DNA from: Arenibacter arenosicollis
Lineage (GTDB): Bacteria; Bacteroidota; Bacteroidia; Flavobacteriales; Flavobacteriaceae
Direction: 5' to 3'
DNA: 64,000 bases
Assembly (NCBI RefSeq): GCF_014397245.1
Contig: NZ_JACLHY010000009.1
Span: 62,001-126,000 of the forward strand
The notes under the pieces were generated by a model, which saw nothing but the letters and a program-made list of their open reading frames with translations, was not told the origin of the DNA and made no database searches. Position numbers and translations under genes: made by a program. Below are positions 13,854-16,339 of this stretch, piece by piece (position 1 is the first letter of the stretch; each line of letters opens with the position of its first letter).

Positions 13854-14381
13854 ATGCAACTTTTAGGAATAGGTTCACGAATCGACCACAGCGAATTTGG
13901 AAAAGGAGTGGTTACCAATGTTACCTCCAAACATTATTGAGTTACTTTTATGGATAATGGACTGGAAACTATTGATTTGGGTTCTGATTTTGAGGTCATA
14001 GAGGCAGTTGAGGATGAAGTGGATACCATAAGTTTTTCCGAGGTAGAACAATCGCTGATCTCAATATTAAAAAGATGGAGTGATGCCAGTGCCATAACCC
14101 CAATTGCGGATAAGTGGAAGGGTGGGAGTTTGGTTCTAAAACCTGGGGATACCAATTTGACGGACAAAGAAATTCCAATGGATACTTTTTTTCACAAAAT
14201 TGTTATGGTCAGAGATCGAATAAGAGTGATGGAACAGAAAATAAACAGTAGTAATAATTTGGACGATCAGGAAAAGGTAGATTTACAACAATACATTACT
14301 CGTATTTATGGAAGCTTAACCACATTCAATGTGCTTTTTAAAAGTCAGAGCGATAATTTTGTGGGCGAAAAAACCAAGTAA
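13854..14381 (+). pseudogene. Conserved flavobacterial hypothetical gene interrupted by in-frame TGA
   Basis: An ATG at 13854 opens 28 codons (MQLLGIGSRIDHSEFGKGVV onward, ending SKHY), then TGA at 13938-13940, after which the same frame stays open to 14381 (VTFMDNGLETIDL onward). The N-terminal piece looks like a KOW-like or beta-barrel motif that runs naturally into VTFMDNG, and a Trp (TGG) is the expected residue at the stop, so one G-to-A change explains the break. The remainder is an acidic segment and a helical region (PMDTFFHKIVMVRDRIRVME, QQYITRIYGSLTTFNVLF). Translation could restart at ATG 13950, giving 143 residues without the N-terminal motif. Function unknown. Confidence 0.75.
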
Positions 14382-14503: not shown

Positions 14504-15217
14504 TTATACTGCAGCCCTTTCATTTATATACCCCATCTGCGGTTTATTGGTATATTGTGAATGTAATTTATTGTTTATAAGATATTTTAAGGTAGTCTGG
14601 GATATTACTTCTTTGTTATGATATGCCGATAGCTCCAAGGAGATAATTTCAACAGTGTACAGGTTATAGTATATGGCATATTTTCTTTTTCGGTCATAAA
14701 TGATAAATTCTTGACCCTTGAATTTGGTGCGAAAGTGTTTTGAAATTAAAGGCAGTACATCAAAACCGGGAGATACATCGGAAAAAAGGATTTGGTCTTT
14801 TGATATTGTAAAATTTGCAATGGCCTCAATTCTATGTTTTTCCCTCGCCACCATTCTTGATTGTTGTTGAATTTTTAATATAATTTCCGCAATATCGTCT
14901 ATGCGTTCCTCATCAGGATTGGCATACATGGAACGTATATATTGGTATAGAAGTAGTTCAACACCCTTGGATTCACTTAAAAAGGCGAAGTATATTGACT
15001 TTATAGCTGCATTGCTTTTGTTTTGTATACTATTCCAAACACGCCTTGCCTTATCCATTTGAGTGAAAACGGTTATAGCCTCGGAAAACAAACCTTTTTG
15101 GTTTTCTGTGTTCCTTTGAATATTGGTTACTTCAATTTTCTCCTCAAAAACTTTGAAAACTGTGGTTAAGAACCCGTTGAAGCTACCATCGTAAATTAAA
15201 ATTTTAGGATTTTCCAT
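14504..15217 (-). CDS. DUF4130 / TIGR03915-type putative DNA-repair protein
   Basis: The 237-residue protein matches my memory of TIGR03915, starting ILIYDGSFNGFLTTVF with a later PDEERIDDIAEIILKI and RTKFKGQEFIIYDRKRKYAIYY. In many genomes this family is paired with a SplB-like radical SAM protein (TIGR03916) and is thought to take part in DNA repair; it is often fused to or near uracil-DNA glycosylases. That partner is not next to it here. The gene follows a 59-codon ORF by two bases on the same strand, and both would be read from the regulated divergent promoter facing the S24 repressor. Confidence 0.75.
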   Translation of the reverse strand: MENPKILIYDGSFNGFLTTVFKVFEEKIEVTNIQRNTENQKGLFSEAITVFTQMDKARRVWNSIQNKSNAAIKSIYFAFLSESKGVELLLYQYIRSMYANPDEERIDDIAEIILKIQQQSRMVAREKHRIEAIANFTISKDQILFSDVSPGFDVLPLISKHFRTKFKGQEFIIYDRKRKYAIYYNLYTVEIISLELSAYHNKEVISQTTLKYLINNKLHSQYTNKPQMGYINERAAV

Positions 15218-15219
15218 AA

Positions 15220-15399
15220 TTAATCGAATAAACTGAGTTGCACACTAAATTCCTTTGTTAATCGTCTTCTTTCCTTTTTTACGGAATGACTTCTGATAGC
15301 GTTATGAACCTTATAGGATGGATTGTTGGAATAGTGATTATCCTCCATCCCGGAATGGGCCAGTATGTTTAATTTTTGATGTATGTCTTCCAGAGTCAT
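15220..15399 (-). CDS. Small ORF (59 aa) ending in beta-clamp-binding motif QLSLF
   Basis: An ATG at 15399 opens 59 codons ending in TAA at 15220, two bases before the TIGR03915-type gene. The peptide starts MTLEDIHQKLNILAHSG, has a basic middle (KKERRRLTKEF), and ends VQLSLFD. QLSLF is the canonical QL(S/D)LF pentapeptide by which polymerases and repair proteins bind the DnaN sliding clamp. It sits directly behind the operator-bearing promoter shared with the S24 repressor. It may be a small clamp-binding repair factor; alternatively it is a relic of a larger gene (the radical SAM partner is the obvious candidate), since its N-terminus resembles that family's first residues. No homologue check was possible. 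Confidence 0.6.
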   Translation of the reverse strand: MTLEDIHQKLNILAHSGMEDNHYSNNPSYKVHNAIRSHSVKKERRRLTKEFSVQLSLFD

Positions 15400-15419
15400 T
15401 TCTTTGTATTTGTAATTAT

Positions 15420-15483
15420 TCCAAATATATGGATTATTTCCTAATTATGGAAATAGTCCAATAAATATTTTGGATATATTCCA
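15420..15483. promoter_or_regulatory. Operator array in the divergent S24 / clamp-motif ORF promoter region
   Basis: Three short inverted repeats sit between the two start codons: TCCA-N6-TGGA at 15420-15433, TGGA-N5-TCCA at 15448-15460 and TGGA-N5-TCCA at 15471-15483. The third extends to TTTGGA/TCCAAA. The third overlaps the -33 element of the rightward promoter, and the first overlaps the leftward -7 box, the arrangement expected of an autorepressor controlling both directions. The S24 protein is the likely ligand; this is inference from position. Confidence 0.65.
15422..15429 (-). promoter_or_regulatory. Candidate leftward -7 box (TATATTTG) for the 59-aa ORF operon
   Basis: Read on the reverse strand this octamer is TATATTTG, an exact TAnnTTTG match, 22 bases from the ATG at 15399. 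It overlaps the first operator half-sites. No TTG at the ideal 17-23 base distance was found, so a weak or activator-dependent promoter is possible. Confidence 0.45.
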
Positions 15484-15571: not shown

Positions 15572-16339
15572 ATGAACGAGGATATGGAAATTGTAACAAA
15601 GCGTTTTACAGATCTACGCAGGGAGTTGGGATATACCCAATCCGATTTTGCCAACCTGCTTGGCATTTCAAATACCACTGCGGATATAGAAAGAGGGCGT
15701 ACAAAATTGTCTGGAAAAGTAGTGGTGGAACTGCTTAAGCAATTTAAGATCAATCCACTTTGGTTATTTGGAGAAAGTAACCAAAAGCACCTATCGGTTA
15801 CTAATATTAGTGTTATACCAAAGGTAGTTACCGTAAATTCATCCGATAACGAAAACATGGTATTGGTGAATGCAAAAGCGGCAGCCGGTTATCCACAAAA
15901 TATACAGGATACCAGTTGGTACAGACAACTACCGGCATTTGATATTCCATTGCCAGAGTTTAGAAACGCAACTTATCGCGGTTTTCAGATTGAAGGGGAC
16001 AGTATGTTGCCCAATTTAAAGCCAGGTGAGTGGGTATTGGCCAAGGCAGTGGAAGGTCTACAGGAAATTAGTCCCAATAAGATTTACGTAGTGGTCCTAC
16101 AGGACGCAGTGTTGGTGAAAAAAATAGAAAAATCTCCAAATCCTTCCGTTATTTCATTAATTTCTTTAAATGAAAACTACCCTCCATATTCTGTAAATAC
16201 GGAGGACATACAAGAGCTTTGGCAGGTTAGTAGTAAAATAACTTTTGGTGTTGATGCCACCTCTGAGAAAGGATTACTAAGACAACTTCAAGAATCTATG
16301 GAGGAGCTGAAAAATCAATTAAAAAAGGTCAACGATTAA
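15572..16339 (+). CDS. XRE-HTH / S24 peptidase autocleaving repressor (LexA-like)
   Basis: This 255-residue regulator has an N-terminal XRE helix-turn-helix (about 9-66; LGYTQSDFANLLGISNTTADIERG). A C-terminal S24 protease domain carries the nucleophile Ser144 in EGDSM and the general base Lys183 in VLVKKIE. A self-cleavage site AAAG-YPQ (Ala105-Gly106) sits in the linker. The C-terminus is a short coiled coil. By analogy with LexA/UmuD-type proteins it would be inactivated by RecA-stimulated autocleavage, derepressing itself and the divergent 59-aa ORF/TIGR03915 pair. A GGAG site precedes the ATG. No phage genes surround it, so a chromosomal stress regulator is favoured. Confidence 0.88.
   Translation: MNEDMEIVTKRFTDLRRELGYTQSDFANLLGISNTTADIERGRTKLSGKVVVELLKQFKINPLWLFGESNQKHLSVTNISVIPKVVTVNSSDNENMVLVNAKAAAGYPQNIQDTSWYRQLPAFDIPLPEFRNATYRGFQIEGDSMLPNLKPGEWVLAKAVEGLQEISPNKIYVVVLQDAVLVKKIEKSPNPSVISLISLNENYPPYSVNTEDIQELWQVSSKITFGVDATSEKGLLRQLQESMEELKNQLKKVND

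Follow-up and report, generated by a model that had tools for sequence, protein, structure and literature searches.

What is a 59-codon reading frame that ends in a sliding-clamp-binding motif doing between a LexA-like repressor gene and a TIGR03915-type gene? The question is raised by a stretch of 64,000 nucleotides from Arenibacter arenosicollis, here called the window. Positions 15220 to 15399, on the reverse strand, hold a frame of 59 codons plus stop that begins with ATG and encodes a protein with an N-terminal helix motif, a basic linker and a C-terminal clamp-binding motif, its final residues being VQLSLFD. The stop codon lies 2 nt before the ATG of a TIGR03915/DUF4130 gene (14504 to 15217, reverse strand), and a divergent S24/HTH repressor gene follows at 15572 to 16339 on the forward strand. 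In these respects the coordinates and sequence agree with the initial annotation: the QLSLF motif is real and conserved, and the divergent gene matches HTH_3 and Peptidase_S24, its product showing the Ala-Gly, Ser and Lys residues characteristic of autocleaving repressors.

The 59-codon frame is a real, conserved gene. In a search of 100 related genomes, strong or weak matches ran through the genus, and the best 14, all from Arenibacter, contained no internal stop. When loci were read individually, 17 of the 18 Arenibacter genomes proved to have the frame; only in A. amylolyticus (L173) is it absent from the locus. All small-gene loci read consist of an operon with TIGR03915/DUF4130, a divergent S24 repressor and two or three GGA-N5-TCC operators upstream. 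Gene order is S24, operators, small ORF and TIGR03915, with TIGR03916, a radical-SAM gene, intervening in L281 and L282. The 2-nt junction with TIGR03915 recurs in 15 of the 17 small-gene loci tabulated.

The small gene is also under purifying selection. Across 11 Arenibacter small genes of equal length, dN/dS was 0.38 for the whole gene (codon bootstrap 0.26-0.55), 0.24 for residues 2-20 (0.10-0.53), 0.54 for the linker (0.33-0.84) and 0.07 for the last eight codons (0.00-0.35). The motif's AGT-TTA-TTY codons show little variation, and the start of TIGR03915 translation may therefore impose some constraint on them.

A first profile, built from 21 members, gave 14 strong matches (E < 5e-15) among 397 Flavobacteriaceae genomes. 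With a renewed profile and six weak places read, the small gene was found in 20 of the 397 genomes and 13 of 237 genera; the renewed profile contains most known members, which match by construction, and G451 stood outside it. An order-wide sample contained the gene in 4 of 296 genomes, every one of them Flavobacteriaceae. Many marine flavobacteria are among the carriers, and some relatives, including G010, G035 and G054, lack the gene wholly. The prospect that homologues would prove to be merely parts of longer genes, or would lack sequence conservation, was therefore not borne out: the gene stands alone in 13 genera and is conserved. In L149, by comparison, the codons QQLSLFN and a stop before TIGR03915 are all that is left, a picture of plain loss, unlike the small gene.

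Conservation is concentrated at the two ends of the protein. Residues 1-20 (MTLEDIHQKLNILAHSGMED; 15340 to 15399, reverse strand) follow the pattern xxIxxKLxxLAxxGxxD over about 20 conserved residues, and the linker that follows, of 32-49 residues, carries a net charge between +4 and +11 in all 28 distinct members. The QLSLF codons (15226 to 15240, reverse strand) precede D59 and the stop. Q54, L57 and F58 are invariant among 21 aligned members; QLSLF itself is present in most and is followed by D, E, N, S, Q or nothing, with an acidic residue in most Arenibacter members. Variants within Arenibacter include QPSLF (G003), QISLF (G007) and QFSLF (G001), of which P and F at position 2 fall outside the clamp-motif consensus, Q-phi-x-[L/M]-[F/L], which the window's QLSLF matches. 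Such an ending is rare in the DNA examined. Q[LIFMP]xLF occurs near the C-terminus of 7 of 2113 other distinct ORFs, namely two further copies of the small protein, four TIGR03916 proteins and a different radical-SAM gene that shares the regulon.

According to the portion of PMC11139829 available, QLxLF is among the tightest clamp-binding sequences, and an acidic or free C-terminal end helps. The small protein thus resembles the clamp-binding-motif proteins treated there (Pol IV, Hda, UmuC and others) in its C-terminal QLxLF and its acidic or free end. It differs from them in lacking any domain of the polymerase, nuclease or ATPase kind, and its tail is nearly all that can be recognised. NCBIfam returned zero matches to the 59-residue protein at E up to 10, TIGR03916 included, and a Pfam match to DUF1128 (E 0.06) lies below the cut-off and was treated as chance.

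How is the gene controlled? Judged from its sequence, the product of 15572 to 16339 is a repressor of the Bacteroidetes non-canonical LexA class, combining S24 with a CI-type HTH. In the accessible text of PMC8565304, S24/CI-type repressors are described as the LexA of Bacteroidetes, binding GGA-N5-TCC mainly in Flavobacteriaceae; the COG1573-COG4277 operon belongs to their regulon, and induction of the regulon by DNA damage is reported for other species. Upstream of the small gene, operators AGGAAATAATCCA (GGA-N5-TCC; 15430 to 15442), TGGACTATTTCCA (15448 to 15460) and TGGAATATATCCA (15471 to 15483) lie at -43, -61 and -84 from the ATG. A degenerate possible fourth operator (15411 to 15423) lies 19 bp from the site at 15430, making a pair with 2 mismatches. 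Only two operators are found by pattern in 4 of the 20 members tabulated.

In the window's genome, the single non-palindromic operator pattern occurred 11 times on the forward strand against 7 in the control, and 28 times on the reverse against 8. The paired pattern is stronger evidence: with up to 2 mismatches, it was found at 8 genomic places, whereas the reversed control gave 1. Two Y-family polymerases, SRAP and a radical-SAM gene lie behind the four best pairs (0-1 mismatch), and the locus in the window belongs to the places with 2 mismatches. The LexA-like, SOS-type control suggested by the initial annotation is therefore well supported for the small-gene operon by the published repressor class, the matching operators and the shared regulon. 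A clamp-like QMKLF also ends a further radical-SAM gene that lies behind paired operators of this kind (L117 and L108; contig C23 of the window's genome, G000). Two more small ORFs, of 94 and 85 residues, lie behind the same operators (L116, L118), before a Y-polymerase and opposite SRAP, with no Pfam match above cut-off.

Where might such a gene have come from? A full radical-SAM TIGR03916 gene precedes TIGR03915 in 55 of 80 named loci (those holding a TIGR03915 relative), at a gap of 1-433 nt that is 2 nt in 7 of the 55. In 51 of these 55 loci an S24 gene diverges from the pair at a distance of no more than 800 bp, and in most the operators lie at about -40, -58 and -81, compared with about -43, -61 and -84 at the small-gene locus. 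The enzyme's C-terminus is similar as well, with Q[LMIF]xLF among the final 20 residues of 94 of 94 TIGR03916 rows (some genomes being counted twice) and Q, L, L and F invariant in 25 aligned. TIGR03916 (rSAM_link_UDG, a putative DNA modification/repair radical-SAM protein) and the small protein are alike in the C-terminal QLxLF, in the operon slot before TIGR03915 and in the operators, and probably also in their N-terminal 20 or so residues, in register. They differ in length (about 420 residues against 59), and the small protein has neither a radical-SAM nor an HhH domain; it contains no Cys, and the CxxxCxxC iron-sulphur motif is therefore absent.

The N-terminal likeness was assessed in several ways. 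The enzyme's first segment reads MxFxRxxEKLxILADAAKYD, and the window's small protein shares 8 of 20 residues with the TIGR03916 enzyme of its own genome. Scored against TIGR03916, the N-termini average +8.8 at register 0 and -8 to -20 at ten other shifts. The null set first used for this score (592 ORFs) excluded ORFs matching a motif-like regular expression, which biased it towards the result. In a repeat against 2112 other ORFs, made without that exclusion, no more than 3 ORFs scored higher than each of 25 of the 28 distinct members, two of these ORFs being TIGR03916 themselves. As for the exceptions, L237 has 8 ORFs above it, and shifted starts make L243 and L193 fail at the fixed register. 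Profile-profile comparison of the N-termini (hhalign) gave P 1.8e-4 with a probability of only 49. Finally, the small-gene profile weakly matched (E 0.016-0.083) the N-terminus of 13 frames, which are 420-442 residues long and about 1.2-1.4 kb upstream of TIGR03915 matches, and the C-terminus of 2 frames immediately before TIGR03915 matches; by position and length these frames are taken as TIGR03916.

Two genomes, G216 and G395, carry both genes, in the order S24, operators, small gene, intact TIGR03916 and TIGR03915 with an intact tail, and the small gene therefore persists alongside the enzyme. Simple internal deletion in place was set aside, given that the small gene adjoins an intact TIGR03916 in these genomes. 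Their gene order may be ancestral, or may reflect the later joining of a foreign TIGR03916-TIGR03915 pair. With both ends like those of TIGR03916 and the slot shared, the small gene is probably the enzyme cut down to its ends; it is no dead remnant, being under selection and preceding an intact TIGR03916 in two genomes. The initial annotation had offered a TIGR03916 remnant as one of its two readings, the other being a small clamp-binding factor induced by damage, and each is borne out in part. Its observation of N-terminal likeness holds, and the C-terminus matches too; the idea of a mere remnant does not survive the gene's stand-alone presence in 13 genera, its purifying selection and its coexistence with the intact enzyme.

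Phylogenies of the neighbouring genes bear on how often this happened. In a first TIGR03915 tree (36 rows), where Arenibacter L205 and L154 were still labelled as having neither gene, small-gene loci grouped with some loci lacking the small gene (87/84), and L149 was placed among enzyme-bearing relatives. In a second tree of 75 rows, with seven loci added, the small-gene loci fell in an open fork. TIGR03915 of G216 and G395 takes a basal position in the S24-linked group; that of G451, from the same genus and with no TIGR03916 in the stretch read, falls with the other small-gene loci. Small-gene loci are scattered in the S24 tree, where a single small-gene clade is not rejected (p-AU 0.26) in a test that included a wrong protein as its L242 row (branch length 10). 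Long branches make the number of origins uncertain, a single origin included.

The partner gene differs between the two kinds of locus. In the window, TIGR03915 scores 155.6 bits against its family profile (cut-off 112.25), matching positions 1-195 of 243, and is without the family's C-terminal tail. All 86 rows with TIGR03916 retain the YW-containing tail. It is kept by 1 of the 28 rows that have the small gene in the enzyme's place and by 5 of 19 with neither, and so is lost in 41 of the 47 rows lacking the enzyme. In these counts L168, L210, L177, L038 and L046 were entered as TIGR03916-bearing and L149 as neither, and the small-gene class includes Arenibacter L205 and L154 (QPSLF and QISLF). 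Comparisons of independent pairs all ran in one direction and were not significant (8 pairs, median p 0.125). Beyond TIGR03915, at about 13854-14381, the gene for a conserved 175-residue protein has a premature stop in the window's genome and is intact in relatives.

Structure prediction with AlphaFold2 was applied to the small gene and TIGR03915 of a homologue (G049), joined by read-through. The TIGR03915 core was confident and resembled PAP phosphatase (Z 10.3, 189 residues, 4.4 Å), RecJ (Z 9.4, 196 residues, 4.7 Å) and Cdc45 (Z 8.2, 193 residues, 4.3 Å). DUF4130/TIGR03915 (14504 to 15217; L078) is accordingly predicted by modelling to have a DHH phosphoesterase fold, the match being one of fold only. 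Its YDGSFNG motif presumably resembles a degenerate DHH metal motif, and a search up to E 1 yielded no sequence relative of solved structure for the window's TIGR03915. The small part of the model has a pLDDT of about 41-55 with one helix (4-16), and docking on TIGR03915 is therefore unsupported; residues 44-65, which bear on whether the clamp motif lies accessible in a disordered region, score below 50, and this may reflect disorder or a thin alignment of two rows. A TIGR03916-TIGR03915 model had a mean pLDDT of 45, too poor to show pairing.

We lean, a little beyond even, towards the view that the small gene encodes an SOS-induced adaptor that tethers TIGR03915 to DnaN and that arose from TIGR03916. 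Its origin would probably lie in duplication and internal deletion of a TIGR03916 gene, or in reduction in place. The protein would then consist of the first 20 or so and the last six or so TIGR03916-like residues, joined by a basic, probably disordered linker. Upon DNA damage, self-cleavage of the S24 repressor would release co-expression of the small gene and TIGR03915. The C-terminal QLSLF would dock on the DnaN sliding clamp and the N-terminal segment would hold TIGR03915, so that the clamp could deliver TIGR03915 to damaged forks without the radical-SAM enzyme. We infer the clamp step from conservation of the motif, and TIGR03915 binding from constant adjacency and likeness to the enzyme's ends; derepression of the operon and a role in repair are likewise proposed on sequence grounds.

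Other explanations fit parts of the evidence. The SocB toxin acts by occupying DnaN and displacing polymerases. The small protein could similarly be a clamp competitor or fork checkpoint, with free QLSLF peptide produced in bulk after damage filling DnaN pockets and displacing polymerases or TIGR03916. This is unlikely, even though the protein is small and basic, has a motif of the tightest class with an added acidic residue in most Arenibacter members, and coexists in two genomes with a TIGR03916 bearing the same motif. A pure competitor needs neither the N-terminal 20 residues, which are also selected (dN/dS 0.24), nor a partner, and TIGR03915 accompanies the small gene at all loci read.

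Descent from TIGR03916 could also be questioned. An independent microprotein might mimic the enzyme, sharing a helix and a tail as motifs that bind the same partners. In most lineages Gly indeed replaces the enzymes' Ala (LAxxGxxD against LADAAKYD), and in G216 and G395 the small gene is separate and upstream of TIGR03916. Mimicry is nevertheless rather improbable, given that the distance from start codon to operator nearly equals that of TIGR03916, the 2-nt junction with TIGR03915 is common to some TIGR03916 loci, and the weak profile matches lie on TIGR03916-like frames, 13 at the N-terminus and 2 at the C-terminus. The reading of a decaying, functionless TIGR03916 remnant left open by chance, appears quite improbable. 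Both ends match the enzyme, the slot is identical and plain losses do exist (L149; A. amylolyticus L173), but a dN/dS of 0.38 overall and 0.07 at the C-terminus, presence in 13 genera and a position beside intact TIGR03916 in G216 and G395 all speak against decay. Finally, a leader ORF that couples TIGR03915 translation would account for a stop and ATG 2 nt apart in those 15 of 17 loci, but is highly improbable, as amino acids are conserved at both ends despite synonymous change and TIGR03915 lies soon after the operators even in loci without the small gene.

Known systems offer partial parallels to the proposed adaptor. The COG1573-COG4277 operon has the same repressor class, operator and SOS regulon, and we read COG4277 as presumably TIGR03916. 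It is a two-gene UDG-like operon, and the available part of PMC8565304 describes neither a third small gene nor a replacement of COG4277. ImuB-C and SRAP-type recruiters, for which the available part of PMC3765255 proposes that they bring in repair enzymes, are likewise accessory proteins of SOS operons that stand alone; they have folded domains, whereas the small protein shows no confident fold. No description of a small SOS clamp-binding gene of this kind was found in the literature searched, which covered few subscription journals.

A broader reading is more tentative and falls somewhat short of even: a radical-SAM repair enzyme would have been reduced to its two binding ends, which persist in 13 genera as an SOS microprotein in its own right, so that an enzyme pair became a non-catalytic, clamp-tethering pair with TIGR03915. 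If true, the value lay in the binding ends and not in the active site. Evolution would seem to have dispensed with the catalytic part and retained the initial 20 residues and a clamp tag, a natural experiment on how the uncharacterised TIGR03916-TIGR03915 repair pair is held together. Two predictions follow, namely that TIGR03916 itself acts on the sliding clamp, as the motif at its end suggests, and that TIGR03915 works at forks even without the enzyme.

The enzyme pair itself gave rise to two further observations. The window's genome contains a second, complete TIGR03916-TIGR03915 pair on contig C8 (L033, L073), with no S24 gene seen near it in the stretch read. In addition, a second, different small ORF of about 45-75 residues recurs between TIGR03916 and TIGR03915 in many loci (L151, L153, L161, L179, L184, L186 and L190), with a core like LERSRxxILxLGYDxIxFKSKxKKxL.
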